A stretch of DNA of 60,922 nucleotides from a virus. The notes beneath the pieces are model-generated. The model did not search any database, had not been told where the DNA came from, and saw only the letters and a list, made by a program, of their open reading frames with translations. The stretch spans positions 1 to 60,922 of IMG/VR virus record IMGVR_UViG_3300033183_000054; one strand, 5' to 3'. Shown in pieces: positions 18,292 through 60,922 of the stretch; position 1 is the stretch's first letter, and each line of letters starts with the position of its first letter. The translations under genes and the position numbers were made by a program.

Positions 18292-18492
18292 TTAGCCGAT
18301 ACGCCACGTCCTTACACCAAGCATACCTTCATATACTACAGCGTAACACTTAACTTTTATTTTTTCTTTTTTAGATTTTGTTTCTATGGTGTAGATTAGA
18401 CTAGAGGGTCTAGTCGTAGGTATGAAAAAACTATCCCCTCGTTCCATATATAAGAATGGTAGTATCCATTCAGGCTCACTTGTTCTCAGCAT
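18292..18492 (-). CDS. Small conserved phage protein
   Basis: The 66-residue product contains EWILPFLYMERGDSFFIPT, then IYTIETKSKKEKIKVKCYAVV and a final GVRTWRIG. I recall small phage proteins with this GDSFFIPT...GVRVWRV pattern encoded near replication genes, but no function. The compact beta-type sequence with Lys-rich turns might bind nucleic acid. It overlaps the end of the primase gene by 17 bases and its stop abuts that of the giant plus-strand gene with no spacer, so the opposing transcripts meet here without a visible terminator. Confidence 0.65.
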   Translation of the reverse strand: MLRTSEPEWILPFLYMERGDSFFIPTTRPSSLIYTIETKSKKEKIKVKCYAVVYEGMLGVRTWRIG

Positions 18493-21421
18493 TTATTTCT
18501 TTCACTATCTCATCTAAAAACTTAGCAGATTCTATTTCAATAGTAGATACTGCACCTAAGCTAGCAGCAGGTTTCCAACCGGCACCCATACGCTTCTTAT
18601 GCTTACGAGTCTTGTACCCCATCTTATTCATATTTTCTATGAATGCGTCTACACTTGCTCCTTCTTTAGCTAGGAACTCTGCAAAAGCACGCGTCTCTAT
18701 ATTATATAAACTACTATCTATATCAGCTCTAACGACTAGGTGAGATGCTCTAACATCTGCAGAAGCGTTACCGTCCTCAATAGTTAAAGTACCTAAGTGG
18801 TTAGAGTTAAGGAACCTTTGTAGTACGTCAACGTAATCCGCTTTGTTAATCTCAATGACATTGTTCTTAGTATTAATCATATCATTAACTACGTGATTGT
18901 AGATACGCTCTAAGTCATAATCAATAATACCAAGTTCGTTAGCTATTTCTGCTCCTGTAAATGTACAAGCTATAGCATTGTGGTAGAACCTATACACAGC
19001 ATCTTTTGAATAGTCATTCATGAATCTCTCTACCCAGTAATCAAACCTAGCTTTTATTTTTTCTTTTGGAGTTTCCATTAAGTATCTAATATATTCACGA
19101 CCTGCATGCCCATAGTTCTTAGTGAACGGATTAAATATCTCTGCCCCTATCAAAGCGTCGTTTTTAAGTATGCTAGGAGAACCAACTTTAAATTCAAGAA
19201 CCCTTGCTAGCTCACCGTTAGGGTCTATCTTCAACCCAGCTAATTTAGTTATCACCGAGTGGTTTGATGTAAAGATAACAACCATAGATGCTTCACCTTC
19301 ATGAGGACGTTCTTCGTCTACAGATGCTTCCATTCTAACTTTAGGTTTACCTTGTGATACATTGTGAATAAAGTTACCTGTCTCTTCACCGTTTTGGTTA
19401 CCCATCTCATCAAACAAGAATGGTACATTCTTCAAAGCTATGATACGTTGGTTCAATGCATTAGGTGTTGCTTGTGCATTTCTCTTACCATCTTTTGTAC
19501 CAACCATATGTAGAGGTTTAGGGTGACCCCATATACTAATACTACCGAATGATGCACCTGTTTTAGCTGTACCAGATTCTGTGTTGTATAAAGTTATAGT
19601 AATAGCTGGAGTAGAACATTCTAAGAACTCAAATAATGGAGATGCAAACCCAGTCATTAATACAAACGCATGTAGTTCAAACTCTTTTTGGTTTAGTTTT
19701 TGAGCTGCTTTTTTCCATTCATCATAACTACCGGTAGGCTCCATATATTTAGCTAGTGTCTTAGCATTACCAGCTAGTGCAGTATCAGCTTCAATTATTT
19801 GCCCATCTATATTTCTTATTTCTGTTTTACCAAACACATAGGATGAACATTTGTCAGCCCAACCAAGTTGTTTACGTAGCATATCAGGATCAGTATGGTC
19901 TATAAGCCAATCTGCCCACTCATAAATATAATCCATAATATAACTTCCTTGTTTAGTTTTTTGGTCATATATAATTCCGTTCTTTGTAACTATCTCTTTG
20001 AACTTAGACAAATCATATAGCTCATTCATCTTCATTCTAAATACACGTTCATTACCTTGTTTATTTGCTTTAGATGGTAAGACTGCTTTCATATCTAACA
20101 TCTCTCCATCTTTCTCACAATAGATACGACGTATAGGATAGAGTAAATGCTTTAGTGCAAGTACAGGTTTTTGTGCTATTGGATTACCTTCTTCATCATG
20201 TACTACTGGAGGCTGATAATATATACCACCTGAGTTAGCGCCGATAGACCAACCCTTCTTAGCTATTTCCGATGGTAGTCCTACAAACTCTTTATTAGTT
20301 GTTAGTTCTCCCCCTTCATCTTTTTTAACTATAGCTATAGGCGCAGGTATAAACTCTCTAAACATATTGATAGGTGATTTAATATTACCTTTAAACTTAC
20401 ACCCATCACATAGCCCTGATTTGTATTTACTAAACTGCTCACAGGTATGCGGTTTGCCTTGCGTTTCATTAGCTTTGAACTCTGTCTCACTAGGCAAATA
20501 ATCATCATGCCCTTTAGATAGTTCGTGTATAGCTTCTGCCCTGTCTTCACAATGTTGAGCAATAGATAGTATAGAGAACCATTCATCGTATCCAACATCG
20601 TTAGGCTTAGTTTGTAGTATGCGCTCGATCTGCGCACAACCAGTGCCCGCTATACTTTCTTTTGCAATCCTGTCAAACGATACTTTGAAGTTGTCTAACT
20701 TAGCGGCTTTCTTTTCCTCGTCAGACATAGGCAGTTTAGCTGCTTGTTTTAAAATATCATTTACTGATAGCTCAACCTCACCTAGTATCTCTTTGAACAT
20801 ACCAAATTTGTAGACAGTTAACTCATCAGACATTATCTTAGCTGGAGCTTTGTCTCGTTTTGGTTTGTTGTTAATCGTGTCAGGACAACGCATGATCCTA
20901 GAGATGTCGCACATAACACTCTCGTCTACTAACAGATTATTGTTTTGACAAAAGGTTAAGAACTTTTTAGCATACGGCTCCCACTCTGTAATAGGTATGT
21001 CTTCATCAAATAAATAGTATGCGTGTATACCGTTACCTGAGTCTACCCATACAGGATCAGGCATGCCTGTATTTTCTATAAAGTTAGTTAAAGCATCTAT
21101 AGCATCTTGTTTAGTTTCATATGTCTTACCAGCTTTTGCTTTCTCAGGATCAACGTCTAGATCAAGATATAAACAACGCCTGTAATCTACATTCAACTTT
21201 TCTTTTACTCTGCCCTTACGTACTGGACTAAGGTACGAAGATATAGCAAAGAAGATGTTTTTGTCCTCCCCCTGTTTCTCTTGAATAGATTTTACAGTGT
21301 CAGGTATTTCAGCTTTAGACTCGACCCACTCATGAGCCATAGTGCCTTTGTCTGTAACCCAAGCTACACAGTAGTTCTTTCCTGAATCAGGTAGTGCTTT
21401 GTTGTAAAATTCTTGTGTCAT
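18476..21421 (-). CDS. PrimPol-type primase fused to DUF927 helicase-like domain
   Basis: The 981-residue protein starts with an archaeo-eukaryotic primase-like region: the metal-binding DLDVD at 87-91 and SGNGIHAYYLF (His133), followed by CDISRIMRCPDT. A Cys cluster (HTCEQFSKYKSGLCDGCKF, about 340-360) marks the linker. From about residue 380 to the end is a DUF927-like ATPase with the P-loop-like SGTAKTGASFG (about 610-620), FLFDEMG and VIFTSNHS. Together these would prime and unwind DNA at the replication fork. The gene lies last in the minus-strand replication block. Domain names are from memory of the families; the motifs are directly visible. Confidence 0.85.
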   Translation of the reverse strand: MTQEFYNKALPDSGKNYCVAWVTDKGTMAHEWVESKAEIPDTVKSIQEKQGEDKNIFFAISSYLSPVRKGRVKEKLNVDYRRCLYLDLDVDPEKAKAGKTYETKQDAIDALTNFIENTGMPDPVWVDSGNGIHAYYLFDEDIPITEWEPYAKKFLTFCQNNNLLVDESVMCDISRIMRCPDTINNKPKRDKAPAKIMSDELTVYKFGMFKEILGEVELSVNDILKQAAKLPMSDEEKKAAKLDNFKVSFDRIAKESIAGTGCAQIERILQTKPNDVGYDEWFSILSIAQHCEDRAEAIHELSKGHDDYLPSETEFKANETQGKPHTCEQFSKYKSGLCDGCKFKGNIKSPINMFREFIPAPIAIVKKDEGGELTTNKEFVGLPSEIAKKGWSIGANSGGIYYQPPVVHDEEGNPIAQKPVLALKHLLYPIRRIYCEKDGEMLDMKAVLPSKANKQGNERVFRMKMNELYDLSKFKEIVTKNGIIYDQKTKQGSYIMDYIYEWADWLIDHTDPDMLRKQLGWADKCSSYVFGKTEIRNIDGQIIEADTALAGNAKTLAKYMEPTGSYDEWKKAAQKLNQKEFELHAFVLMTGFASPLFEFLECSTPAITITLYNTESGTAKTGASFGSISIWGHPKPLHMVGTKDGKRNAQATPNALNQRIIALKNVPFLFDEMGNQNGEETGNFIHNVSQGKPKVRMEASVDEERPHEGEASMVVIFTSNHSVITKLAGLKIDPNGELARVLEFKVGSPSILKNDALIGAEIFNPFTKNYGHAGREYIRYLMETPKEKIKARFDYWVERFMNDYSKDAVYRFYHNAIACTFTGAEIANELGIIDYDLERIYNHVVNDMINTKNNVIEINKADYVDVLQRFLNSNHLGTLTIEDGNASADVRASHLVVRADIDSSLYNIETRAFAEFLAKEGASVDAFIENMNKMGYKTRKHKKRMGAGWKPAASLGAVSTIEIESAKFLDEIVKEINAENK

Positions 21422-21452: not shown

Positions 21453-21749
21453 CTAAAGACTCTCCAAATAAACTTTTGCAAACTTAGACGTCTTCGCCGG
21501 CAGGTGACCTGTCTTCAAGTCATCTTCCACTGTCTTAATAAAGTTCTTAATCTTAGTATAATTCTTTTCTCTTACATATTTACCACGAAACCAACTATGA
21601 ATCGACATACGAGACACCCCGAAAGCTTTAGCAACATGCGTAGCAGGTAAATTTGCTTTTACACATATTCTTGCAAGCTGTACACCAATTCTTTCAGGGT
21701 CGGCTCGGTCTAACTCAATTAAGAATTGTCCGCTGTATGGTCTTGCCAT
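21453..21749 (-). CDS. HTH DNA-binding protein
   Basis: I choose ATG 21749 (MARPYSGQF) because it is preceded by AGGAGACATT and does not overlap the upstream gene; a further in-frame ATG lies at 21776. The 98-residue product contains a probable helix-turn-helix: LPATHVAKAFGVSRMSIHSWFRGK (about residues 34-57), with A-F-G-V-S as the turn. The remainder is helical and basic. It is the best candidate in the window for a transcription regulator. Whether it binds the repeated palindrome of 31-41 kb cannot be told from sequence. The alternative is a small replication accessory protein. Confidence 0.7.
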   Translation of the reverse strand: MARPYSGQFLIELDRADPERIGVQLARICVKANLPATHVAKAFGVSRMSIHSWFRGKYVREKNYTKIKNFIKTVEDDLKTGHLPAKTSKFAKVYLESL

Positions 21750-21757
21750 AATGTCTC

Positions 21758-22630
21758 CTAGTCTTTGGTTGCCCACTTATTCATAATATCTGAAATATCA
21801 TTTGCCTTTTCTACTGGCTCAGATTCCTTTCTTACTACAGGTTCTTCAACAACTTCCTCAGCTTGCACTGGTTCAGGTTGAGCCTGCTTAACAGGTTCCT
21901 CAGCTTTTGAGTCGGTTTGATATACAGTTAATTTAATTGCTTGTTCCGCTGCAGAAGACTTAGCTTGTTTCTGTAAAACTTCTACATCTTCAATATTTAC
22001 AGCAGCTGCGGGTGAGAACAGTAGCTTCGGCACTGATGACTTAGAGTCAAACTGCATTCTAGTTACTATCCTACCGGCACTTACATTGTTGTTTGCAAGC
22101 ATCTGAATATATGGTCTGAATGGGTATTTACCACCCTCTTCTTTACCAAAGCATGACGTAGCAGGTAACACCATTTGCATAACATCACCTGATGGATCAT
22201 TAGGTAATACTACGGCTATACGCCAGGACAATCTACATGCGCTCCCTGTACCACCCACGCCTGAACCTTTTACACTAAACTGACACGTGTCGCATGATTT
22301 AGCTTGTGGAGTTTCACACTCAGGTGAAGGAACGTTTGAATCATTTGACCAACAAGTTGGGCTCACCTTCTCCCCTTCCTTATAGGTCGATGCATAAAAT
22401 GTTCGCGAGGCATTGTGAGACATCTTAACAATGATGACATTCATGAAATTATCTTCAATTGTAGATACCTCTTTCCCGTTGACCACTTTATGAAAGTTTT
22501 TACCGCGTATCGAAATACGCTTTGCACCGCCACCGCTAACACCGCCAGCAACAGCAAGTGTATCTTCATCCAGCCCTGTTTGAACAATGGCTGAACTGTT
22601 CTGTAAAATAGTTTGTAAATCTGTACTCAT
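21758..22630 (-). CDS. Cys-rich candidate ssDNA-binding protein
   Basis: The 290-residue product has a core with a likely metal site, four cysteines in CWSNDSNVPSPEC...SCDTCQF, and then SACRLSWRIAVVLP. The C-terminal third (about 220-280) is low-complexity, rich in Glu, Pro, Val and Gln, and the protein ends in a short conserved-looking tip (DISDIMNKWATKD). A beta-rich core with an acidic flexible tail is typical of phage single-strand binding proteins. It sits between primase and helicase genes. The binding role is inferred from context and architecture; I see no classical OB-fold signature. Confidence 0.6.
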   Translation of the reverse strand: MSTDLQTILQNSSAIVQTGLDEDTLAVAGGVSGGGAKRISIRGKNFHKVVNGKEVSTIEDNFMNVIIVKMSHNASRTFYASTYKEGEKVSPTCWSNDSNVPSPECETPQAKSCDTCQFSVKGSGVGGTGSACRLSWRIAVVLPNDPSGDVMQMVLPATSCFGKEEGGKYPFRPYIQMLANNNVSAGRIVTRMQFDSKSSVPKLLFSPAAAVNIEDVEVLQKQAKSSAAEQAIKLTVYQTDSKAEEPVKQAQPEPVQAEEVVEEPVVRKESEPVEKANDISDIMNKWATKD

Positions 22631-26227: not shown

Positions 26228-26807
26228 AATTATACTCCTGACCCCATATTTTTTGAGGTATTCTTGTTATATGAGAGTTTTTAGTCACAGATATTTTCAA
26301 TCTATCTTTTCTAAACCCTCTATGATCTGAATAATAAGTTCCATCTCTTAGTCTAAATGTTGCACCCCAGTTTCCTTTTGTGCGAGCCATATACATAACA
26401 CCAACATTTAATCTTCCTGCTAGCCTGTCAAAAACCTGCATGTTATTTAGATTGGTGTACGATGGATATTTTTTATAAAAATTAGTTATGTTATCGTCTT
26501 CTACCACTGGAGCCAAAAATATAGGGTAACTTACATCAGGTCTAGTTTGATAAGCTACCATTTGTTCAAAATATTTGGCTAAGTCTGACCAGCTAGTATA
26601 TCTAGATAAAGCCTTCTTACACTCTATACCAAAAAATATATGTCCTCCTTCATACGGTGCTTTGACTAAATAGTCTAATCTTGCCCACCCACTCTTAAGT
26701 TCATATTCTTCTTCATATCTCCAACCATCTTTCTTTTTTGAGTTAAGATACTTTCTAACTATGTTGCTAGCAAATACTTCATCTTTTATAAAATGTTTAG
26801 GCTCCAT
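26220..26807 (-). CDS. PD-(D/E)XK nuclease-like protein
   Basis: I take ATG 26807, which overlaps the polymerase stop as ATGA. The 195-residue protein has YEEEYELKSGWARLDYLVKA with Asp45 and FFGIECKKA with Glu62 and Lys64. This is the D-x(n)-E-x-K core of the restriction-endonuclease-like fold. The C-terminal part (VGVMYMARTKGNWGATFRLRDG) looks like an additional beta domain. Its target is unknown; it could degrade host DNA or process replication intermediates next to the polymerase. Confidence 0.7.
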   Translation of the reverse strand: MEPKHFIKDEVFASNIVRKYLNSKKKDGWRYEEEYELKSGWARLDYLVKAPYEGGHIFFGIECKKALSRYTSWSDLAKYFEQMVAYQTRPDVSYPIFLAPVVEDDNITNFYKKYPSYTNLNNMQVFDRLAGRLNVGVMYMARTKGNWGATFRLRDGTYYSDHRGFRKDRLKISVTKNSHITRIPQKIWGQEYNYG

Positions 26808-28672
26808 CAACAGTCCCCATAGTTTTCTGCATACTCGCCTTCGCAAGTTATAGGTAAATCTTCACCCCACTTAGGAGGTTTAGACATCTCGTCCATAATA
26901 AACTTCAGTGCTTTATCTTTATCTTCTTCAGGTGCAGTACATACAATAGCATCATGAACAGTTAACACAGGTTTGTATTTGTCCGCTACTTTAACCATCT
27001 GTTCGCCTATGATAATTCTAGCTAATGCTTGAACCACGTTCTCTACAACTGAACCACCCCAAATATTTACGACTCCTCGTCTAGAAGAATATATGTATGA
27101 TTCTCTGTCTGATTCTGTATCCCTTTGTAGCTCAGGATAATATATCATTAGTCCGTTTGGTAGTTTCAATCCATCTTTTGTAACCAATACACATTTATGT
27201 TTGTCAAGGTAATAAGATTCTTTATCTTTCCAGTGTGCCATATTGCGTAAAGCTAAATCACATTTCTCCCACAACTGAATAACTTTATTGTTAACATCTC
27301 TGTAAACTCTGACTAATCTTTTACATTCTTCGTCTGAAAGGTCAGCACCAGGTGGGGAAGTCTTCAAAGTATGTTGCAACTTTGACCACCCAGTACCATA
27401 ACCTAAACCTAGAGTACAGGTTTTACCAACAAATCGTTCTGTCTTGTTTCGTTTATCTATCTTTCTGTTGTAGACTTTACTTGCAAACTCAGAGTAAACA
27501 TCTTCTCCGTCTCTATATAATTTAACGATGTTCTCTTGTCCAGCTAACCATACAAGCACCCTAGCCTCAATCTGTGAGGAATCGCAGTTTATGATGACAT
27601 GTCCTTTTGGTGGTAACACTGCGTTCTTCAAGGCTTTCTTCTTTGCATCACGACTTGGTAAGTTTTGAAAGTTAACCTTGTCTGAGCCTGACCATCTTCC
27701 TGTATGCGCCCCGTAGTATTTAAGTGGGATAGGTAGTTTGCCACTGTTACGCACAGCAATATCTAAGAATCTCTCTATTCTTGACTCTTCGATTGTAGAC
27801 TTTGTACCAAGTCTCACTGCACATAGTTCTTGTATAAATGGGTTCTCGTGTTCTTGTAGTTCTATAAACCCAACATCATTCTTTGCTAAAGCATACGTCT
27901 CTTTGCCAGTGGTCGAACTAATCTTTGTAGGCACTTCAACTCCTAGTTCTTCTAACAACTCAGCAAACTGTTTGTTACTAGCCAACTTTTTACGTACACA
28001 CTCTTCGTCTTCGCATTCTAATCTGTTCTTCAGACCAGCTAACAAGTTTTGTTTTTCTTCTTGTACTTCCTCTAATCTATTAATTAGTATTGCATCATCT
28101 AATCTAAGCGTAGGCTCAGTGTACATTCTCAATGTAATGTCTATAAGTTTTAGTTCATCCATAGGAAATGTCTTAGATAATATCTTGAATAAGTCGTAGG
28201 TTAGTTTGACGTCGTTCTTACAGTATTGACCATACTGATGTAGTTCATGGTCTGCGAAGTCTTCTAGTCGTTTACCTTTAGCATCCAGAACCTCAGTGCC
28301 TTTCTGTCCTATGTTATATCGTTCAGCGAGGGCTTTCAAACTACCGCCGGCATTAACACCGTGTATTGCACGAGCCATTGATAAGGTGTCAAGGTAAGCA
28401 AGAGGAACAATGTTAAATATCCATGATAGTATTGCACCATCAAATATTGTATTGTGGCAGAGTAACATTGTGTCACTCCAGTCTATCTTGTCTAATTCTA
28501 GTTTGAGTTCGTCATGCGAACCAGTAAACCATTTAGTTTGACCTTCATCTATCTTAAGTGCATATCCGATGACTTGAAATCTGTCATCTTTTATATACTC
28601 TTCTGTTGTTAGTCTAGATAGACTAAACCCTGTGTCGTAAAACGTCTCAAAATCGAGAGTTACTATTTGCAT
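26807..28672 (-). CDS. Family A DNA polymerase with 3'-5' exonuclease
   Basis: The 621-residue protein carries the proofreading exonuclease motifs DFE (7-9), HNTIFDG (73-79) and YCKNDV (150-155). The polymerase motifs follow: A CDSSQIEARVLVWLAG (Asp364), B RFVGKTCTLGLGYG (Arg413, Lys417, Tyr425) and C TVHDA (His573, Asp574). The residue after Glu in motif A is Ala, as in many phage Pol A enzymes. No 5' nuclease domain is present. It is the replicative polymerase of this phage. Motif C is intact, so the enzyme should be active. Confidence 0.95.
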   Translation of the reverse strand: MQIVTLDFETFYDTGFSLSRLTTEEYIKDDRFQVIGYALKIDEGQTKWFTGSHDELKLELDKIDWSDTMLLCHNTIFDGAILSWIFNIVPLAYLDTLSMARAIHGVNAGGSLKALAERYNIGQKGTEVLDAKGKRLEDFADHELHQYGQYCKNDVKLTYDLFKILSKTFPMDELKLIDITLRMYTEPTLRLDDAILINRLEEVQEEKQNLLAGLKNRLECEDEECVRKKLASNKQFAELLEELGVEVPTKISSTTGKETYALAKNDVGFIELQEHENPFIQELCAVRLGTKSTIEESRIERFLDIAVRNSGKLPIPLKYYGAHTGRWSGSDKVNFQNLPSRDAKKKALKNAVLPPKGHVIINCDSSQIEARVLVWLAGQENIVKLYRDGEDVYSEFASKVYNRKIDKRNKTERFVGKTCTLGLGYGTGWSKLQHTLKTSPPGADLSDEECKRLVRVYRDVNNKVIQLWEKCDLALRNMAHWKDKESYYLDKHKCVLVTKDGLKLPNGLMIYYPELQRDTESDRESYIYSSRRGVVNIWGGSVVENVVQALARIIIGEQMVKVADKYKPVLTVHDAIVCTAPEEDKDKALKFIMDEMSKPPKWGEDLPITCEGEYAENYGDC

Positions 28673-36361: not shown

Positions 36362-37273
36362 TTAGAATTGAAATTTAGAAAGTATGTCTTCTACGTCGTT
36401 CTTAACACGCTCTCTTGTGCTATCACTTACTCGTAGCTTTTCACTGTCAACACCTTGTAGGGTATCGTCTAATTGATTCGCTACTGACCTAAGTCTTGTG
36501 CTATGTTCATCATCAGTTAGTTGGAAGTTCCTGATTGTTTCGCATAACTCTTTTGCTTTCTCGATGGTGCTATCATAGATTTTGCGTTTCTTAGTTGTGG
36601 TCTTGCCGTCTTTTGTAACCTCTTGCGTTCCACAACAGTGTGCGATGCTTTCCATGACATTCGTGATTCGTTCTGTTTGTTGATGTAATACATTCTTAAC
36701 TATCTCCTCAGCTTGTTTTTGGTATTGTAGTTTCAAGTCGCTCGCCAAGTCTTGTGCTACTTGACAACGAAAGTCTTGCTCAGGCACTTCAGAAACATAC
36801 AGGTTACATGCAAACTTACTTCTGACTTCGTCAACACTTGGGTAATCATCTGCGTTATACATATCACCCTGACTGAAAGCCATGTTTGATTTAATAGTGT
36901 CATACCTATCACAGAAATCATCTAGTAGTCTGTAAAACTCTGTCTGATGTTCGTCATACTCAGATTTGAATTTCTCTAAGTTGATTGTAGGTAATAAGTC
37001 TTGACTGACGTTCCATCGGTATGTGTTGCGTTTAGCCCAGTTGTAAATGGTCTGTCGATAGTTCACCAAGTCTTTGTGATAGATGTTGTTAGCTAATAGA
37101 TTTTTAACAAACCTACCTGCGTTACTGTCTGCTCGTTTAAGTTTGGTTACCTCTGATGAGATACCTCTGTCTTGTTTTGTTGCTGACCAAACATTTACGT
37201 CTACTGATACCAATACTGCTGATGTGGCTAGTGATGTAATATGTTTAGGTTGTTGTAGTTCGACGTAGTGCAT
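36362..37273 (-). CDS. DUF3150-like protein, partner of MoxR/VWA
   Basis: The 303-residue protein starts MHYVELQQPKHITSLATSAVLVSVDVNVWSATKQDRGISSEVT, close to what I remember of DUF3150 proteins found with MoxR and VWA genes in phages and plasmids. The rest is helical and charged, with a mid-protein basic patch (TKDGKTTTKKRKIYD). It has its own promoter (37384-37411) and the shared TTAACTTTATAGGAG leader. The family name is moderately certain; the molecular role is unknown. Confidence 0.7.
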   Translation of the reverse strand: MHYVELQQPKHITSLATSAVLVSVDVNVWSATKQDRGISSEVTKLKRADSNAGRFVKNLLANNIYHKDLVNYRQTIYNWAKRNTYRWNVSQDLLPTINLEKFKSEYDEHQTEFYRLLDDFCDRYDTIKSNMAFSQGDMYNADDYPSVDEVRSKFACNLYVSEVPEQDFRCQVAQDLASDLKLQYQKQAEEIVKNVLHQQTERITNVMESIAHCCGTQEVTKDGKTTTKKRKIYDSTIEKAKELCETIRNFQLTDDEHSTRLRSVANQLDDTLQGVDSEKLRVSDSTRERVKNDVEDILSKFQF

Positions 37274-37450: not shown

Positions 37451-37603
37451 TTAGCTATCCTCCTCTCTGTCAAAGTCAAGTTCAATATCAGACAAGTCTT
37501 CTGTCTGTTCTTCCTCAGGATACTCCCACACCCTGTCCTTTTTATTTATGTTCTTGCGATTGTGCATGATAATTTTCCAATCATCTTTGTTTGTCATACT
37601 CAT
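37451..37603 (-). CDS. Small acidic hypothetical protein (50 aa)
   Basis: ATG 37603 has AGGAGAAAAACC upstream and overlaps the stop of the previous small gene. The product starts MSMTNKDDWKIIMHNRKNINKK and ends with a very acidic tail (EEEQTEDLSDIELDFDREEDS). Acidic peptides of this size are often phage inhibitors of nucleic-acid-binding host proteins, but that is only an analogy. Promoter A starts just beyond its stop. Confidence 0.5.
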   Translation of the reverse strand: MSMTNKDDWKIIMHNRKNINKKDRVWEYPEEEQTEDLSDIELDFDREEDS

Positions 37604-37710
37604 GGTTTTTCTCCTAATCTATGTCTTAACACCTCAACAACCAAATCTAAAGATTCGCCGTCCGTCGTATTTTTATCAAGTATTACCTTAAGTAGTTCTT
37701 TGTCAGTCAT
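37600..37710 (-). CDS. Small hypothetical protein (36 aa)
   Basis: The frame MTDKELLKVILDKNTTDGESL... ends in ATGA overlap with the next gene. It is helical and has no recognised family. No strong ribosome-binding site is seen, so it may depend on coupling to the upstream zinc-finger gene, which ends nine bases before. Confidence 0.4.
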   Translation of the reverse strand: MTDKELLKVILDKNTTDGESLDLVVEVLRHRLGEKP

Positions 37711-37718
37711 ATTTAAAT

Positions 37719-37919
37719 TCACTTGATTAGTCCCCCTTTATTGTTGATGCCTTTTAAGTCATCGTAGTTTGTGAACACCATGTAGTTTGATTTGTGCATC
37801 GGTGCTACACAGTGCTTTACTTTCTCGGCTTGTTTCTCCCCACAGTCAAGACAAACCTTGAAACCTAGTTTTGCTCTATCGCTAGAGAATTCATTACCAC
37901 ACGTTATGCAGTTAGTCAT
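37719..37919 (-). CDS. Small zinc-ribbon protein
   Basis: The 66-residue product opens with MTNCITCGNEFSSDRAKLGFKVCLDCGEKQAEKV, a clean C-x2-C...C-x2-C ribbon, followed by KHCVAPMHKSNYMVFTNYDDLKGINNK. It resembles small phage zinc ribbons that bind nucleic acids or RNA polymerase. It overlaps the upstream gene by eight bases. Confidence 0.65.
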   Translation of the reverse strand: MTNCITCGNEFSSDRAKLGFKVCLDCGEKQAEKVKHCVAPMHKSNYMVFTNYDDLKGINNKGGLIK

Positions 37920-38172
37920 AGTCTATCTCCTTATTGCGTAATGCGTCGGCTATCAAGTGAACTAAGTCATTTATATCTTTGGTGTCGATATAGTGTTCGA
38001 TTAGTTCTTGAATACAATACTTTTGCTCTGCGTTCTCGTATTGCTCAGGCACACATCTTTCTTCTAATACTTTATAAGCCATCGCATACTTGTCTGTCGG
38101 TGTTGGGCAATTAACTTCCACCTCGTTCACCCAATACGTCCATGCGTCGTCTTCAATACTTGGCATACTCAT
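37912..38172 (-). CDS. Small hypothetical protein
   Basis: ATG 38172 (MSMPSIEDD) overlaps the upstream stop as ATGA. The 86-residue acidic protein contains WTYWVNEVEVNCPTPTDKYAMAYKVLEERCVPEQYENAEQKYCIQELIEHY, with three cysteines. No family is recognised. Confidence 0.55.
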   Translation of the reverse strand: MSMPSIEDDAWTYWVNEVEVNCPTPTDKYAMAYKVLEERCVPEQYENAEQKYCIQELIEHYIDTKDINDLVHLIADALRNKEIDYD

Positions 38173-38405
38173 TCCATCTCTCCCCACCATCTGCGTTCGT
38201 CTACCAAGCGTTCTGCTAGCTCATCATCAGAAAGTTTATTGTATGAAAGACACCCATCTTCATGTAGTCTAACTATTTCTTCTACTAAGTCTTTATGGCT
38301 AGAGCTTTCCCATGACTTTTCTTTATAGTCTAATAACATATCTAATATCTCATCTCGACTATATCTAGCTTTGGTCTCTGTTATTAAATAATCTCTGTCG
38401 CTCAT
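38169..38405 (-). CDS. Small acidic protein, paralogue 2
   Basis: ATG 38405 (MSDRDYLITE) has GGGGGAC upstream. The 78-residue protein contains YSRDEILDMLLDYKE, DLVEEIVRLHEDGCLSYNKLSDDELAERLVD. The neighbouring upstream gene encodes the same pattern (YSRDMMIEKILDDI, ELIAEIVELNINGVHAINEMSDKQLAEKCVE), so the two are tandem paralogues. The function is unknown; the conserved EIV-L-x3-G and LSD-ELAE helices suggest a protein-binding fold. Confidence 0.6.
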   Translation of the reverse strand: MSDRDYLITETKARYSRDEILDMLLDYKEKSWESSSHKDLVEEIVRLHEDGCLSYNKLSDDELAERLVDERRWWGEME

Positions 38406-38407
38406 AT

Positions 38408-38668
38408 CTAGTCCCCCCACTCGTCGTTGTTATCAAATATTTCTACGCATTTCTCTGCTAGTTGTTTATCACTCATCTCGTTAATTGCATGGACGCCATT
38501 AATATTAAGTTCGACTATCTCAGCAATCAATTCGTCCCCACTGTATGTATTAGATAACTTGTCTACTATGTCGTCTAAGATTTTCTCTATCATCATGTCC
38601 CTAGAATAGTTTGACATTACCTCTAGCTTTTTGTAATGCGTGTTTGAAGTTTCTAAGCTACTACTCAT
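38408..38668 (-). CDS. Small acidic protein, paralogue 1
   Basis: The start at 38668 overlaps the stop of the membrane protein gene as ATGA. The 86-residue product has an extra N-terminus (MSSSLETSNTHYKKLEVM) and then the same domain as the next gene. The duplication is clear at protein level but diverged in DNA, so it is old. No function is assigned. Confidence 0.6.
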   Translation of the reverse strand: MSSSLETSNTHYKKLEVMSNYSRDMMIEKILDDIVDKLSNTYSGDELIAEIVELNINGVHAINEMSDKQLAEKCVEIFDNNDEWGD

Positions 38669-38868
38669 AGCCCACCTCGCATTAGATAAGTTAGCATACC
38701 GACTGATAAGAACATTAGAATAACTAAGATAACAAACACAACCGACAATATCGTATCAAGTTTGCGTTGTCTAATTAGTTCTCTGCGTTCCAATAATGGA
38801 TAATCAGGTATTGATTGGTGATACTTTTCCCAGTATTTCTCCATTTGTTCCAAGTCTTTTTTGTGCAT
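38665..38868 (-). CDS. Tail-anchored membrane protein
   Basis: The 67-residue product has a charged N-terminal helix (KKDLEQMEKYWEKYHQSIPDYPLLERRELIRQRK) and a C-terminal membrane segment (LSVVFVILVILMFLSVGMLTYL). It is the first gene after promoter B and carries the shared leader TTAACTTTATAGGAG just before ATG. The layout suggests an early inner-membrane protein of unknown target. Confidence 0.6.
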   Translation of the reverse strand: MHKKDLEQMEKYWEKYHQSIPDYPLLERRELIRQRKLDTILSVVFVILVILMFLSVGMLTYLMRGGL

Positions 38869-38906
38869 CTCGTTCTCCTATAAAGTTAATAATTTGTAAA
38901 AATTAT

Positions 38907-38922
38907 CGTGGGAAATCCCACG
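38907..38922. promoter_or_regulatory. Repeated palindrome, copy 5
   Basis: CGTGGGAAATCCCACG. It sits in the leader of the tail-anchored protein gene, downstream of promoter B and 38 bases before the ATG. Confidence 0.7.
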
Positions 38923-38993
38923 GTCTGGATAGAGCAAAACAAAATGAAACCATGTAAAACCAAACATATAAAATTATCTCTAACCATACTAAT

Positions 38994-39021
38994 ATTATAC
39001 CAAACTTTACTAATTTACCAA
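38994..39021 (-). promoter_or_regulatory. Promoter B, extended -10 sigma70 type
   Basis: On the minus strand TTGGTA (39021-39016), a 16-bp spacer and TGG-TATAAT (hexamer 38999-38994) form an extended -10 promoter. It is a near copy of promoter A. It would drive the small-gene operon 38868-37451. A palindrome copy (38907-38922) lies between it and the first gene. Confidence 0.75.
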
Positions 39022-39112
39022 TATGTGAGTTGAAGTATTTTTGTTGGATTAAGTTGAGTTGAATTGTGGTCTCCACTCTTAGTTTACGAATGGCTGAAAC
39101 TTCGTGATGTTG

Positions 39113-39500
39113 TAAGTGCTTGATTTTACAGGCTTGTTCCAGTTGTTCCAGTCTAAAACCTCGCTATAACTTTACTATAGGAACAGTGGAACAAAATTGG
39201 AACACGGCTAAGTGCTTGATTTTACTAGGTTTTATATAGATATATATTATATTATTTTAATAATAATTAGTTTGTTCCAGTTGTTCCAGTGAAAACAGGA
39301 CGGTGTTTTTTGTAGTTGTTTAGTTTTGCACTGCGAAATCAAACCTCTTGATGACTAAATCTCTCAAAACCATATACATAGTGTCCCAAGACTGGAACAT
39401 TGGAACAAAGTTAGCTAAGTCCTTGACTTCGTTGACAAAAACCTGTTCCAAGCCCCCCTTCGTAGACTGGAACAAAACCCCGTTTTGCATGGAACAACAT
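39113..39500. other. Candidate iteron-type replication origin
   Basis: This non-coding stretch holds eleven GTTCCA/TGGAAC hexamers: plus-oriented at 39136, 39145, 39274, 39283 and 39445; minus-oriented at 39187, 39198, 39393, 39401, 39468 and 39490. Several are paired at 8-11 bp spacing (TTGTTCCAGTTGTTCCAG twice). A 17-bp direct repeat, TAAGTGCTTGATTTTAC, occurs at 39113-39129 and 39209-39225, with a weaker third copy near 39414. A very AT-rich tract (39229-39270) lies between box clusters. Boxes plus an easily melted tract are the usual composition of an initiator-bound origin. The role is inferred; a regulator-binding array is the alternative. Between it and promoter B (39022-39112) I see nothing specific. 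Confidence 0.6.
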
Positions 39501-39577
39501 GATTTTCTAGCAAATTCAAACTTAAAAAAGCATCGCTAAATTATATCTCTAGCGATAGCATGGTTCTCACCTCGTAG

Positions 39578-39593
39578 CGTGGGAAATCCCACG
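39578..39593. promoter_or_regulatory. Repeated palindrome, copy 6
   Basis: CGTGGGAAATCCCACG. It lies between the candidate origin and the 24-bp direct repeat at 39620, with no gene start close by on either strand. Confidence 0.7.
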
Positions 39594-39619
39594 CAAACTT
39601 TACAAACGGCGTCAGCGAC

Positions 39620-39643
39620 GTCGACGACACATAACTGGTATCA
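39620..39643. repeat. 24-bp direct repeat, copy 1
   Basis: The segment begins GTCGACGACACATAAC and ends TGGTATCA; an identical 24 bp occurs at 40629-40652. A degenerate third element (TAACTGGTTTCAAG) is at about 39694-39707. It follows the minus-strand terminator of the 235-residue gene and precedes palindrome copy 6. Confidence 0.7.
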
Positions 39644-39721
39644 GTTAAGAATTAATTTAGCGTCGTAGACTGCGATAGCGACCTCGTCGTATCTAACTGG
39701 TTTCAAGAATTTAGGGCGAAA

Positions 39722-39756
39722 AAAAAACCCTGCCTGACCGAAGCCAGACAGGGTGT
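39722..39756 (-). terminator. Strong intrinsic terminator
   Basis: On the minus strand CCCTGTCTGGC, a TTCG loop and GTCAGGCAGGG form an 11-bp stem (two G-U pairs) followed by nine T residues. It lies six bases after the stop of the gene ending at 39762 and isolates that gene from the origin-like region. Confidence 0.9.
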
Positions 39757-39761
39757 GAGAG

Positions 39762-40469
39762 TTATGAGTTAAGAACTTTGTCAAGTTCGTTGATTAAGGT
39801 TTCAACCTTTTCTGCCTTTTGAGCATTAAGCTTGTCACCGTTTTTGATACCATTGCGGTATAGTTTGACAAAACTTGCGAAGCCTTTAACCATACGAGCA
39901 TTGAAGGGTAAGACTTCAACGCTTGAGCCAGACTCTGTATTATCTTTCGCATACAAAGACTTGACTGCGTTTTTAAGATCACGAAACTTGTCACGCTTGT
40001 AATCTTGTGCTGATTCACGCCATGCCTTGTAGAATTCCTTCTTAGCAGGACCGATTGGATCAGCGTTCTCACCCTTAGTCGCAGACAAGGATTGATACTC
40101 ACCCTTTGGCATAGCCCACGCCAAGCGTGATTCTAAGACCATGTCGGGCTTGTCATCGCTAGGAACTAACTGCTTACCAGCAACGATCTTGACGGGTATT
40201 TTCTCACCCTTCTCACGCTCCCAGTTTTCAAAGAACGCAGTCGTTGTTTGATCTTTGACTTCGTTTGCCATGTTAGCAAAGCCGTCATCAATCACGGCGT
40301 TAGCGTCCTTAGTCAGCTTAGACTTTGCGACCTTGTCTATTAGCTTTTTATCAGCGTATTTAAGAACGATACCAAGATACATAGAAGCACCTTGTTTTAC
40401 CATACTTGAGCCCTTACAAACTAAACCTACAGACTCATTAATTAAAGTTTTTGTATTTAAGTTTGACAT
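39762..40469 (-). CDS. Monocistronic ORFan protein (235 aa)
   Basis: The 235-residue product is soluble and rich in Lys and Ala. Recognisable segments are ADKKLIDKVAKSKLTKDANAVIDDG, EREKGEKIPVKIVAGKQLVP and a helical end KLNAQKAEKVETLINELDKVL. It has its own consensus promoter (TTGACT-17-TATAAA), an AAGGAG site in the shared TAACTTTATA leader, and a strong terminator, so it is built for high, independent expression. I do not recognise a family. Proximity to the origin-like repeats and its basic character make a DNA-binding or initiator role conceivable, but unproven. Confidence 0.8.
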   Translation of the reverse strand: MSNLNTKTLINESVGLVCKGSSMVKQGASMYLGIVLKYADKKLIDKVAKSKLTKDANAVIDDGFANMANEVKDQTTTAFFENWEREKGEKIPVKIVAGKQLVPSDDKPDMVLESRLAWAMPKGEYQSLSATKGENADPIGPAKKEFYKAWRESAQDYKRDKFRDLKNAVKSLYAKDNTESGSSVEVLPFNARMVKGFASFVKLYRNGIKNGDKLNAQKAEKVETLINELDKVLNS

Positions 40470-40528
40470 AATGTCACTCCTTATAAAGTTAGTAAAATAT
40501 GAACGGCAGAATTACCGAACATGAGTCA

Positions 40529-40557
40529 TTTATATAATTAGTTATATGCTAAGTCAA
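40529..40557 (-). promoter_or_regulatory. Consensus sigma70 promoter
   Basis: On the minus strand TTGACT (40557-40552) and TATAAA (40534-40529) are 17 bp apart. It drives the 235-residue ORFan. The palindrome copy at 40573-40588 lies 15 bp upstream of the -35 box, a position suited to an activator or a looping repressor. Confidence 0.8.
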
Positions 40558-40572
40558 ATAAGTAGGGCTTAG

Positions 40573-40588
40573 CGTGGGAATTCCCACG
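40573..40588. promoter_or_regulatory. Repeated palindrome, copy 7
   Basis: CGTGGGAATTCCCACG, a perfect 16-bp palindrome just upstream of the ORFan promoter. It is the only copy located upstream of, not downstream of, a recognisable promoter. Confidence 0.7.
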
Positions 40589-40628
40589 CATCGAACTCGA
40601 CCAAACCGACAAAATCGACCTCGACGGA

Positions 40629-40652
40629 GTCGACGACACATAACTGGTATCA
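40629..40652. repeat. 24-bp direct repeat, copy 2
   Basis: Identical to 39620-39643. The 40 bp between it and palindrome copy 7 contain CGAC tetramers at mostly 9-bp steps. It immediately follows a minus-strand hairpin at 40654-40669. Confidence 0.7.
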
Positions 40653-40653
40653 A

Positions 40654-40669
40654 GGGAGCCGAAGCTCCC
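40654..40669 (-). terminator. UUCG hairpin, probable weak terminator
   Basis: On the minus strand GGGAGC-TTCG-GCTCCC forms a six-bp stem with a stable tetraloop, five bases after the stop of the small membrane gene, but only a short T run follows. It could terminate or protect the 3' end of the two-gene transcript. Confidence 0.55.
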
Positions 40670-40674
40670 AAGAC

Positions 40675-40818
40675 TTACTCCCATAGTAAAAAGAAATAGA
40701 TACCGAGATTAACCATCGCGACACCTACGAACATAATGGCAAGGGGGTTCATTGCGAACCCCAGTAACGTTGCCACTAATCCACACATACATGCAATCAA
40801 TGCGAATATCTCTTTCAT
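40675..40818 (-). CDS. Small two-helix membrane protein (47 aa)
   Basis: ATG 40818 has GGAG eight bases upstream and overlaps the upstream stop (TAATG). The 47-residue product is almost entirely hydrophobic, with two membrane segments (IFALIACMCGLVATLLGFAM and IMFVGVAMVNLGIYFFLLW). An early inner-membrane peptide is likely; the function is unknown. Confidence 0.6.
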   Translation of the reverse strand: MKEIFALIACMCGLVATLLGFAMNPLAIMFVGVAMVNLGIYFFLLWE

Positions 40819-42159: not shown

Positions 42160-42238
42160 CTCTTTATTATACTCTTTTTTAAATATTATGTTACAATTCG
42201 ATTTATTAGCTGCAATTTCAAGGTGTAAACAGCGACAC

Positions 42239-42805
42239 ATGACAGAAAACAAAGAGCCATTAGTACCCCCAGTAGAAGAAAATATACCTTTACCTAAAGG
42301 GGCTAGAGATGCTTTACCTGAATTAACTCCAAAAGAAGAACTATTAGCTAGAAGTAAAACAATAAAGCTGATTGCGGATATCAATGGAGAAACTATTGAG
42401 CCAACTAAGGATCAAGTTGATGATGCTACTAAGATGGCTGAAGAAATGATGGAGAATAGGGACTTAAAACACGAGTTTGCTAACTATCCTAACGAAACTA
42501 TAGCGTTTTTGACAGGTTTGGTTGAGTCAACTAGCCATATGGTAGTAAAAGACCTAGCAGATATTAAGTTATCAGTGCTAAATGGGCTATTACAAGAGGC
42601 AGCAACGGCTAAATCGGCTCGTGAACGTATCTCAGCATGGTCTAGAATAGGCGAAATAGACGGAGTTGATGCATTTAAAAAGAAAACTGAGGTTACACAT
42701 GTCACTAAATCAGGTAAAGAACTCGAAGAAGAGCTGAAAAAGACCATTGAGGAGCTAAAAGGTAAGGTAGTTGAAGGTGAAGTGATAGAAGACGACGATG
42801 ATTAG
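42239..42805 (+). CDS. terS: Terminase small subunit
   Basis: The product is placed as the small terminase by its position directly before the large subunit (8-bp overlap) and by its composition. It has an acidic N-terminus (PLVPPVEENIPLPKGARDALPELTPKEEL), a helical core (VKDLADIKLSVLNGLLQEAATAKSARERISAWSRIGEIDGVDAF) and an acidic end (VIEDDDD). I prefer ATG 42239 (MTENKEP, 188 aa), with AAGG 14 bases upstream. ATG 42188 is possible but lacks a site and overlaps the divergent promoter region. The core helix would recognise the packaging site. Confidence 0.75.
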   Translation: MTENKEPLVPPVEENIPLPKGARDALPELTPKEELLARSKTIKLIADINGETIEPTKDQVDDATKMAEEMMENRDLKHEFANYPNETIAFLTGLVESTSHMVVKDLADIKLSVLNGLLQEAATAKSARERISAWSRIGEIDGVDAFKKKTEVTHVTKSGKELEEELKKTIEELKGKVVEGEVIEDDDD

Positions 42806-44324
42806 CCAACAAGACCTTGATTTATTAGAAAAAGCACTACCAAACATGTCTGAAAGGGACAGACAACGTAATTTAAAGCTGTTAACAGACTATAAAAAAG
42901 AAATAACTAAAGAACGTGGCGCAAAAAGGTTCTTAGACTTTATTAAACATGTATATCCAAACTATATTATAGGAGAACATCATAGGCGACTGGCGCAACT
43001 CTTTGAGGATATTGCGGACGGCAAAAAGAAAAGGATTATTGTCAATATTGCACCGCGACACGGTAAAAGTGAACTTATATCCTACTTGGCTCCGGCATGG
43101 TTCTTGGGTAAGCACCCTGCCAAAAAGGTTATCATGGCATCTCACACTGCTGACCTTGCGGTTAACTTTGGTCGTAGAGTACGTAACCTCGTGGGTTCAG
43201 ACTTATATAAAGATGTGTTTCCCGAAATCGAACTTCAAGCAGATTCTAAGTCGGCTTCGCGATGGGGTACTAATTTTAACGGTGAGTATTTTGCCATTGG
43301 TGTGGGCGGCGCTCTTGCTGGACGAGGCGCAGACTTATTTATCATCGACGACCCTCACTCTGAGCAAGATGCAAAACTTGGAAAACCAGATGTATTCTTA
43401 CCAGCATGGGAATGGTTTCAGTCAGGTCCCTTACAACGGCTTATGCCCGGAGGCGCAATTATTGTCGTTATGACGCGGTGGTCTAAGCTAGACTTGACTG
43501 GTCAGATTGTTAATCAGATGGTGAAGAACGATGAAGTAGATGATTGGGAGGTAGTGGAGTTCCCGGCTATACTAGAAAATAAGCAAGGCGAAGAAGTACC
43601 TCTATGGGGAGACTTCTGGAGTTTAGAAGAACTAAGAGCTAGACGTGCTGCGTTAGATGTTAGGTATTGGAATGCACAATATATGCAAAACCCAGTATCT
43701 GAAGAAGGTGCGTTGATAAAAAGGGAGTGGTGGAACATATGGGAAGAAGACAATCCACCGCCATGTGAGTTTATTATTATGACATTGGACGCTGCTCAAG
43801 AAGCAAACAACCGCTCTGACTACAATGCTCTAACCACTTGGGGAGTATTTTTTAACGAAGAAACCAATAATTATAATATAATACTGTTAAACGCAATTAA
43901 GAAACGTCTAGAATTCCCAGAGCTAAAGCAGCTTTGCATAGAAGAATATAGAGATTGGGAACCTGACTCCTTTGTTGTGGAGAAAAAATCTAACGGGGCT
44001 GCACTTTACCAAGAGTTCAGAAGGATGGGTATACCCGTAGGAGAATTCACACCAGGAAAAGGACAGGATAAGATTAGTCGAGTCAACGCTATATCTGATT
44101 TATTTAGTTCAGGTATTGTCTGGGCTCCAGAACATAGATGGGCAAATGAAGTGATAGAAGAATGTAATGACTTTCCTTCAGGTGCCAATGATGACTTAGT
44201 TGACGCAACGACGTTAGCTTTAATGCGTTTTAGACAAGGTGGGTTTATAAGGTTACCAAGTGATGAAGAAGATGAGATACCTGGGTTTAGAGGCTATAAC
44301 CATAAGCGGTTGTATGCTTTATAA
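42798..44324 (+). CDS. terL: Terminase large subunit
   Basis: The 508-residue protein contains the packaging ATPase motifs APRHGKSE (85-92, Walker A) and LFIIDDPHSE (Walker B, Asp184-Asp185). The RNase H-like nuclease has Asp331 (MTLDAA), Glu395 (VVEKKSNG) and the final DDLVDATTLALMRF (Asp465, Asp466, Asp469). All key residues are present. It translocates DNA into the prohead through the portal and cuts it. The gene order small subunit, large subunit, portal is canonical. Confidence 0.95.
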   Translation: MISQQDLDLLEKALPNMSERDRQRNLKLLTDYKKEITKERGAKRFLDFIKHVYPNYIIGEHHRRLAQLFEDIADGKKKRIIVNIAPRHGKSELISYLAPAWFLGKHPAKKVIMASHTADLAVNFGRRVRNLVGSDLYKDVFPEIELQADSKSASRWGTNFNGEYFAIGVGGALAGRGADLFIIDDPHSEQDAKLGKPDVFLPAWEWFQSGPLQRLMPGGAIIVVMTRWSKLDLTGQIVNQMVKNDEVDDWEVVEFPAILENKQGEEVPLWGDFWSLEELRARRAALDVRYWNAQYMQNPVSEEGALIKREWWNIWEEDNPPPCEFIIMTLDAAQEANNRSDYNALTTWGVFFNEETNNYNIILLNAIKKRLEFPELKQLCIEEYRDWEPDSFVVEKKSNGAALYQEFRRMGIPVGEFTPGKGQDKISRVNAISDLFSSGIVWAPEHRWANEVIEECNDFPSGANDDLVDATTLALMRFRQGGFIRLPSDEEDEIPGFRGYNHKRLYAL

Positions 44325-59162: not shown

Positions 59163-59723
59163 ATGTCGACTATAATTAACGCAGATACATCAGACGGATT
59201 AAAGTTTACCTCTGACACATCTGGTGAGATAAAACTACAGAGTGCTGGTACAGATATTGCTACAGTCAATAGCAGTGGTATTACAATGGCAAGTGGTAAA
59301 GATATGGTATCTACAGGTCATGTATTACAAGTAGTACAAGCACAAATAGCAACCGACCAAAGCACGACAAGCACTAGCTATGTAACTTCTAATTTAAGTG
59401 CATCTATTACACCAAGTTCTACATCAAGTAAAATATTAGTAATGTTAAATGGTGGAAATACTTTTAATAACACAAATGGAAACGATGTATTAGTTACTTT
59501 TTATAGAGATGGTTCAGCAGTAGAAACTGGACCGCATGCTTTAATTGAAAATACACCAGGAACAAATTCATTTAAAAGTAATTGGAGTGCTTGTTATTTA
59601 GATAGTCCATCTACAACATCATCTGTAACATATACTCCATACTACAAAGTAAAGGCTGGAACTGGTTATTTTAATCAAGCTACTGCTAGGATAATGCTTA
59701 CATTAATGGAGATTGCAGGATAA
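59163..59723 (+). CDS. Tail fibre / receptor-binding-type protein
   Basis: The 186-residue protein has an N-terminal attachment-like segment (MSTIINADTSDGLKFTSDTSGEIKLQSAGTDIATVNSSGI) and a beta-sandwich-like C-terminal part (SKILVMLNGGNTFNNTNGNDVLVTFYRDGSAV...ATARIMLTLMEIAG). The N-terminus resembles that of the protein starting at 60001, which suggests alternative or tandem fibre tips. Confidence 0.75.
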   Translation: MSTIINADTSDGLKFTSDTSGEIKLQSAGTDIATVNSSGITMASGKDMVSTGHVLQVVQAQIATDQSTTSTSYVTSNLSASITPSSTSSKILVMLNGGNTFNNTNGNDVLVTFYRDGSAVETGPHALIENTPGTNSFKSNWSACYLDSPSTTSSVTYTPYYKVKAGTGYFNQATARIMLTLMEIAG

Positions 59724-59998
59724 TGAATAAACACGAAGCAATATATAAATTATATACGAATGTTGTAACTATTAATGGTGATACAGCATATGATGCAAAT
59801 GGTAACGAAGTATCATACGATGCTGATGCAGTTCAAAGTAAAATAGATTCTGAAGCATATAAAGATGATAGAGCATCTGCATATAAATCAATAATAGAAC
59901 AACTAGATATGATGTACTGGGACAAAGTCAATGGCACATCGACATGGAAAGAACACATTGATGCAGTCAAGGCTGCACATCCTAAACCAACGGAGTAA
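59723..59998 (+). CDS. XkdW-like / fibre-associated small protein
   Basis: The start overlaps the fibre stop (TAATG). The 91-residue product (MNKHEAIYKLYTNVVTINGDTAYDANGNEVSYD...SIIEQLDMMYWDKVNGTSTWKEHIDAVKAAHP) matches the XkdW-type pattern A-I-x-x-L-Y-P-x...Q-L-D-M-x-W-x-D, found next to fibre genes and possibly an assembly factor. The assignment is moderate. Confidence 0.7.
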   Translation: MNKHEAIYKLYTNVVTINGDTAYDANGNEVSYDADAVQSKIDSEAYKDDRASAYKSIIEQLDMMYWDKVNGTSTWKEHIDAVKAAHPKPTE

Positions 59999-60000
59999 CT

Positions 60001-60922
60001 ATGGCTCAAATTAATTTACAAGGCGATACATCAGGAAGTATTAGCATATCAGCACCTAGTGTAGCTGGAACTAATACATTAACGCTACCAGCAACAACAC
60101 AGACACTAGCAACACAGAATGCTCTTGGTGTTCGTAACCTTATCATCAATGGTGATATGAGAATTGCACAGAGAGCGACAAGTAAAACTGGTATTACAAG
60201 TGGTGCATATTACACAACTGATAGATGGAGAACTGTTATAACATCTGGTGGAACTTGGACAGAAACACAAGATACAGATGTGCCAAGTGGACAAGGTTTT
60301 TCTTATAGTAGAAAATTTCAATGCACTATTGCAAATGCAAGTTTAAGTGCTGGTAGTGTTTTTGCTGACCAAACAAAGCTTGAAGGTCAGATGTTACAAC
60401 ACCTTAAAAAGGGAACATCCTCTGCTGAAAAATTAACATTATCTTTTTGGGTTAAGTCTAATAAAACTGGAACTATTATTGCAGAGTTTGAAGATATAAA
60501 TAATGCAAGAACTATAGGTCATCAAGTAACCATAGACACTGCTGACACATGGGAAAAGAAAACTTGGACTTTAGATGGTGACACTACAGGTGCATTAGAT
60601 AATGATAATGGTACATCATTAAATCTTAATTTTATCATAGTTGCTGGAACAGATTTTACATCAGGAACTTTAAATCAAGACACATGGGTGTCAAGAGTAA
60701 ATGCTAATAGATGGGTAGGATGTGACAACTATGCAGACTCTATTTCCAACTACATCAACATCACAGGTGTCCAACTAGAAGTAGGTGATACAGCTACACC
60801 ATTTGAACACAGACCATACGATATGGAATTAGCTAGATGTCAGAGGTATTATTCTGAATTAAAAGCAAGTAATGCTTACACAGGTTTTGGTGCTGGAGTT
60901 TGTCGCAGTGCAACCACAGTAA
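60001..60922 (+). CDS. Tail fibre protein, 3' truncated by window end
   Basis: ATG 60001 opens a frame of 307 codons that is still open at the right edge. It starts MAQINLQGDTSGSISISAPSVAGTNTLTLPATTQTL and continues NLIINGDMRIAQRATSKTG...TDRW. The last visible part, ITGVQLEVGDTATPFEHRPYDMELARCQRYYSE, is a well-known end-of-module motif in phage fibre proteins (QLEVGxxATPFExRxxxxELxxCQRYY). More C-terminal sequence must lie outside the window. Confidence 0.85.
   Translation, partial: MAQINLQGDTSGSISISAPSVAGTNTLTLPATTQTLATQNALGVRNLIINGDMRIAQRATSKTGITSGAYYTTDRWRTVITSGGTWTETQDTDVPSGQGFSYSRKFQCTIANASLSAGSVFADQTKLEGQMLQHLKKGTSSAEKLTLSFWVKSNKTGTIIAEFEDINNARTIGHQVTIDTADTWEKKTWTLDGDTTGALDNDNGTSLNLNFIIVAGTDFTSGTLNQDTWVSRVNANRWVGCDNYADSISNYINITGVQLEVGDTATPFEHRPYDMELARCQRYYSELKASNAYTGFGAGVCRSATTV

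Follow-up and report, generated by a model that had tools for sequence, protein, structure and literature searches.

A conserved box cluster as the candidate iteron origin of an uncultured tailed phage and a distant PrimPol-helicase as its predicted initiator

A dense group of short repeated boxes in the IMG/VR record IMGVR_UViG_3300033183_000054 raises the question of whether this phage starts its replication there and, if so, which of its proteins would read the boxes. The window, that is, the whole stretch of DNA analysed, is the record in full (60,922 bp, end repeats absent) and, judged by its sequence, represents a tailed phage, an uncultured bacterial virus. The initial annotation had described eleven GTTCCA/TGGAAC boxes in about 360 bp, and 11 exact copies were confirmed at 39135-39496 along with one degenerate box. 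The window as a whole contains 47 copies against 25.6 expected from shuffles, the window-wide mean of which corresponds to a chance expectation of about 0.15 boxes per 360 bp; homopolymers aside, GTTCCA/GGAACA forms the densest 6-mer cluster of the window. The extended box is TTGTTCCAGT, and the pairing at helical-turn-like spacing that had been proposed was recovered as tandem spacings of 9, 9, 8 and 11 bp, with one of 22. Near the right end of the window (59657-60645), five TGGAAC occur on one strand within about 1 kb, with no tandem pairing. The features of the cluster are as follows.

39111-39500, no strand: candidate replication origin, the whole box cluster, based on the boxes and on syntenic clusters in relatives
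39113-39125, minus strand: IHF-type consensus AATCAAGCACTTA (pattern WATCARNNNNTTR), inside the first 17-bp repeat
39135-39152, plus strand: tandem iteron pair TGTTCCAGT-TGTTCCAGT in 9-bp register
39180-39204, minus strand: iteron group of a degenerate GGAACA at 39180 and TGGAACA at 39187 and 39198
39209-39221, minus strand: second copy of the IHF-type consensus AATCAAGCACTTA, abutting the AT tract
39229-39270, no strand: AT-rich tract, likely DNA unwinding element, from nearest-neighbour energy
39273-39290, plus strand: tandem iteron pair TGTTCCAGT-TGTTCCAGT, beside the AT tract
39324-39338, no strand: element TTTTGCACTGCGAAA, from alignment, present too in the clusters of a five-phage clade
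39393-39407, minus strand: iteron pair TGGAACA-T-TGGAACA with 8-bp spacing
39416-39428, minus strand: degenerate IHF-type site AGTCAAGGACTTA with one mismatch
39444-39450, plus strand: single iteron TGTTCCA
39468-39496, minus strand: two iterons TGGAACA, at 39468 and 39490

The AT-rich tract that the boxes had been said to flank is indeed exceptional, since no 40-bp stretch of the 60.9-kb record is less stable by nearest-neighbour energy than positions 39230-39269; with a 60-bp window the tract ranks first (least stable) in the record and with an 80-bp window second. Two elements of an iteron origin, a box cluster above chance and adjacent AT-rich DNA suited to unwinding, are present. In 58 of 58 relatives' loci, the 50 bp of lowest stability fell inside the box cluster, which makes up about 6% of the locus length. 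The 17-bp direct repeat TAAGTGCTTGATTTTAC claimed for the region is exact at 39113-39129 and 39209-39225, and a third, degenerate copy lies at 39414-39429. AATCAAGCACTTA, which fits the IHF consensus perfectly and is judged at the level of the consensus, occurs in both exact repeats. Sites of this type were found in 54 of the 58 relatives' clusters (1.80 per kb compared with 0.134 per kb outside, 13-fold), the loci being related and hence not representing 54 independent events; the N4 positions of the sites vary among clusters. At consensus level, the locus thus has a conserved WATCARNNNNTTR site within the candidate origin, as would befit an IHF-assisted origin. DnaA boxes were rejected as an origin element, as no match to TTATNCACA with up to one mismatch was found in 37570-40776, and the locus does not have the make-up of a DnaA-dependent origin. 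The element TTTTGCACTGCGAAA reappears as TTTTCGCAGTGCAAA in most clusters of the clade of phage G015, between convergent box pairs.

The leftward early genes encode a family-A polymerase, an SNF2 helicase, a metallopeptidase-like protein, an ATPase and a 981-aa primase-helicase, and the large terminase, portal and major head protein are encoded in the right part of the record. The genes on which the argument turns are listed here.

18476-21421, minus strand: 981-aa inferred initiator, PrimPol at aa 1-214 and DUF927/SaPIbov1 Rep-Cch-type helicase at aa ~380-970
21453-21776, minus strand: small HTH-like protein, next to the initiator gene
26807-28672: family-A polymerase
42188 (start): 205-aa ORF beside the terminase gene
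42798-44324: large terminase subunit

The switch from leftward early to rightward late genes occurs at 42188, about 2.7 kb from the box cluster, which had been placed near the middle of the early block but actually lies towards the 5' end of this leftward block. The statement that no gene is present held, the sole overlap being a 63-aa ORF with a TTG start. GC skew turns at about 41-42 kb, and gene strand does likewise; being confounded with gene strand, skew speaks neither for nor against an origin at this position. By terminase, the closest annotated phages (48-52%) carry a replication module of another kind. A palindrome, CGTGGGAA(A/T)TCCCACG, occurs in the window at 31061, 34065, 36345, 37302, 38907, 39578 and 40573 (seven copies with up to two mismatches, about 0.02 expected), always in the early block and with two copies flanking the candidate origin. 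Different palindromes are found in the corresponding region of relatives (TTCCACCCATGGGTGGAA in L063, GTGACGCGCGTCAC in L027), and those of the early block are possibly operators of an early regulator.

Relatives were sought by an exact search with the tandem pair over viral contigs and through the protein encoded at 36362-37273, for which 80 loci were fetched; 342 candidate loci with a relative of one early protein came from one virus collection. Near-identical phages (L012 and L084) have this non-coding cluster with boxes on both strands, as do, at the same position in the gene order, phages with only 40-50% identity in their early proteins. Where upstream sequence sufficed, most loci had about 10-14 boxes 0.5-3.6 kb 5' of the 36362-37273 homologue, and such syntenic clusters persisted down to 57% identity in its product. 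The initial annotation had named a cluster missing in close relatives as evidence against an origin; the cluster proved syntenic in close and distant relatives alike. In a few loci, either short of upstream sequence or with a different motif (for example, L248, L251, L261 and L304), no clear cluster was seen, and the distant initiator homologues of Pseudomonas phage Rollin and Rhizobium phage RHph_TM27A came with no comparable cluster. Exact matches to TTGTTCCAGTTGTTCCAGT numbered 88 in viral and 117 in cellular sequences, most of them in coding repeats (Thr-Gly-Thr codons), so that the raw viral count (88, compared with 11 for one permuted control pattern) is weak evidence; from these scans only non-coding two-strand clusters were used.

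The type of box differs between relatives (TGTTCCA, TGTTCTA, TGTTCAA, TGTTCTGG, TGTTCCGA, GGTTCATG and others), and within one genome nearly all boxes are of one type, indicating concerted change. Clusters of the G015 clade contained 10-14 boxes of one type and none or one of another, with the exception of L255 (seven and two). Many boxes occupy homologous positions across box types; the non-box DNA of the cluster is likewise more diverged between phages with different boxes, for which reason exchange of the whole cluster is not separable from change in place.

The protein that follows the box was identified by comparing five phages about 95% identical in three core early proteins, two with TGTTCCA (G015, G021), two with TGTTCTA (G014, G024) and one with TGTTCAA (G016). 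Only one of the 34 gene families common to all five clearly separated same-box from different-box pairs, and this was the homologue of the 18476-21421 product, with 88% identity between same-box and 49% between different-box phages, a gap of 39 points where the mean over the 34 families was 3.8. The next largest gaps (17 and 16) belonged to its two neighbours, which are likely hitchhikers. The initiator gene lies about 18-20 kb from the box cluster, and between G015 and G016 the initiator is 44% identical when intervening genes of at least 200 aa are 68-99% identical; with these larger genes conserved over about 20 kb, a single recombination event cannot explain the link between box and initiator. 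Initiators of the TGTTCCA and TGTTCTA types share aa 1-340 (62-86%) and diverge mostly beyond residue ~345, which places box specificity in the helicase/C-terminal part. This clean signal comes from one clade of five genomes and perhaps two or three switch events; in a second clade (fam1 of L286), no near-identical pair with different boxes and a complete initiator was seen. Across 19 divergent genomes, partial correlation of the distances for box, initiator and core yielded a weak signal (r 0.18, p 0.06; r 0.23, p 0.03 for one control protein) because these distances saturate, and per-residue sorting by box type over the whole family showed no enrichment in the C-terminal 120 aa.

Two products had been put forward as binders of the boxes. 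That of 18476-21421 is strongly supported as the predicted binder by co-variation and fold. The ORFan at 39762-40469 was rejected, because the protein in the corresponding position in relatives does not track the box (91% same-box, 89% different-box identity); the ORFan of the window is only about 20% identical to the relatives' proteins at that place.

DUF927 (PF06048) was present in all 24 aligned homologues of the predicted initiator, and the AAA+ motif residues G617/K620 and D671/E672 were invariant, identifying it as a member of the DUF927/SaPIbov1 Rep-Cch helicases. Its profile matched the PDB sequences 8tch (SaPIbov1 replication initiator) and 5dgk (SCCmec Cch), and three of the 24 homologues gave a weak match to the Cch HTH domain PF18662. 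In the structure model (pLDDT 77.8, confidence lower at the extreme end), the helicase part ends in a winged-helix-like C-terminal end. The best structural match was Cch 5dgk (Z 31.8, 482 residues, aa 380-970), and SaPIbov1 Rep 8tch matched the C-terminal ~590 residues (Z 26.6, aa ~382-976); the modelled fold thus appears to be shared with Rep and Cch, including the C-terminal DNA-binding end. Residues 1-214 matched archaeo-eukaryotic PrimPols, the best being the cyanophage S-2L PrimPol (Z 17.0). No match to a Toprim/DnaG-type primase domain was obtained in the initiator, which sets it outside the P4 alpha family. Homologues were encoded in 24 of the 26 searched relatives' records of at least 25 kb (exceptions G035 and G043) and in none of 14 shorter fragments; of the further records, G050 had one and G051 (29.5 kb) had none, all searched records being possibly fragments themselves.

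A conserved cluster of this kind could also serve regulation. Were the boxes operators for early promoters, bound by a regulator or an autoregulating initiator, no replication would start here, and their location, in a stretch between genes close to where the leftward early genes begin, would suit that role. The HTH-like protein encoded beside the initiator gene, the only other plausible box reader found, tracks the box weakly (gap 16); however, it was rejected as a reader because its putative recognition helix VSRYTIHSWFRGQYIR is identical in CCA- and CTA-box phages. The protein that does track the box is a replicative helicase-primase, and operators need neither the least stable DNA of the locus (58 of 58) nor IHF-type sites, leaving this explanation improbable. 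Phage P4 has an ori plus a separate control locus that its initiator binds, and by this precedent the cluster might be a locus of the P4 crr kind, where the initiator binds for control or incompatibility, with the true origin elsewhere; in its favour, both gene strand and GC skew switch some 2-3 kb further right. The window, however, has no second comparable cluster of the same box, and AT tract and IHF-type sites lie inside the present one, so that we consider such a locus very unlikely. A packaging (pac/cos) or partition site is hardly credible, even with the terminase encoded about 3 kb away (42798-44324) and the 205-aa ORF at 42188 adjoining, given that identity of the terminase-adjacent protein to G015 did not follow the box (67% in G016 and G024 with other boxes, 79% in G021 and 68% in G019 with the same box) and that the cluster was absent, in the parts read, from four phages with a related terminase (48-52%) and another replication module. 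A regulatory, incompatibility or packaging role explains less than an origin does.

The anatomy of the cluster, its conservation in synteny, the co-variation of iterons and initiator (mostly after aa ~345) and the initiator fold, all from comparison of sequences and structures, support the initial proposal of an initiator-bound replication origin, and we regard it as highly probable that the cluster is an iteron origin of the phage, where replication is started by the PrimPol-Rep initiator that the phage itself encodes (18476-21421). About 12 iterons TTGTTCCAGT in mixed-orientation tandem pairs flank the AT-rich tract, the likely unwinding element, and IHF-type sites for bending are interspersed. 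The 981-aa protein would bind the iterons with its C-terminal part and its MCM-like AAA+ helicase assemble there, probably in the form of two hexamers, the arrangement proposed for SaPI Rep; with the help of DNA bending the AT tract would be melted, the fused N-terminal PrimPol would make a primer, and the family-A polymerase (26807-28672) would extend it. It is notable that PrimPol and helicase are fused, that 18 kb separate the gene from the candidate origin and that iterons switch fast and in concert. A more speculative idea, which we think rather unlikely, is that origin identity is under fast selection, near-identical phages repeatedly swapping the specificity part of the initiator together with about 12 distant iterons, possibly so that a co-infecting relative or satellite could not exploit the same initiator.

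Similar boxes were observed in other elements. Tandem TTGTTCCAG boxes beside AT-rich DNA lie next to a VapE/Toprim primase-helicase in L040 (435-890) and next to a split PriCT/DUF5906 primase-helicase in L017 (2370-2660); no homology of these helicases to the initiator family was detected, and they were rejected as its relatives. In L038 and L077 (~1320-1580), the same boxes and an AT tract lie at the 5' end of an integrase gene; both elements also encode an N6/N4 methyltransferase and a 713-aa DUF927 protein that has relatives in Klebsiella, Escherichia and Salmonella phage records. With helicases unrelated or distantly related, these elements could be origin mimics or independent adopters, and the shared boxes may reflect convergence, exchange of DNA-binding domains or mimicry. 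Intergenic two-strand TGTTCCAG-type repeats occurred in cellular contigs (L092, L114, L122, L156, L174, L175, L187, L190 and L194), several of them Prevotella/Bacteroidales; those of L092 lie beside a DnaG-like primase gene. A literature search for the box motif returned nothing relevant.

The analysis offers a concrete candidate origin and a named predicted initiator for a large family of uncultured tailed phages, and places a SaPI/SCCmec-type initiator helicase, fused to a PrimPol, in what seem to be ordinary phages of full size. Since iteron types and initiator alleles come naturally paired, the DNA code of this initiator family becomes directly testable, and likewise the idea of origin exclusivity between competing phages.

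Among known systems, lambdoid phages are alike in that the O protein and the ori iterons vary together between relatives. Lambda has its origin within the initiator gene itself, so that a single recombination event carries both along, and O is not a helicase; here, in contrast, initiator and iterons are about 18-20 kb apart with conserved genes between them. P4 alpha likewise combines priming, helicase and origin recognition in one protein, recognition being through a winged-helix domain, but its primase is of the bacterial (Toprim) type (PMC4234260) and that of the phage initiator an archaeo-eukaryotic PrimPol. SCCmec Cch, which carries DUF927 and is related to SaPIbov1 Rep (PMC7581432), is the best structural match, with the weak PF18662 matches in three of 24 homologues, a likeness at the level of the protein; the phage protein has the N-terminal PrimPol in addition. 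SaPI origins lie directly downstream of rep (PMC7581432), whereas the phage cluster (39113-39500) is about 18-20 kb from 18476-21421, the initiator is PrimPol-fused, the phage is a full-size tailed phage and its candidate origin has IHF-type sites. SaPI Rep recognises its iteron origin via the C-terminal domain (PMC7581432), and the phage system resembles it in its short repeated iterons, its DUF927-family initiator helicase and the C-terminal placement of specificity.
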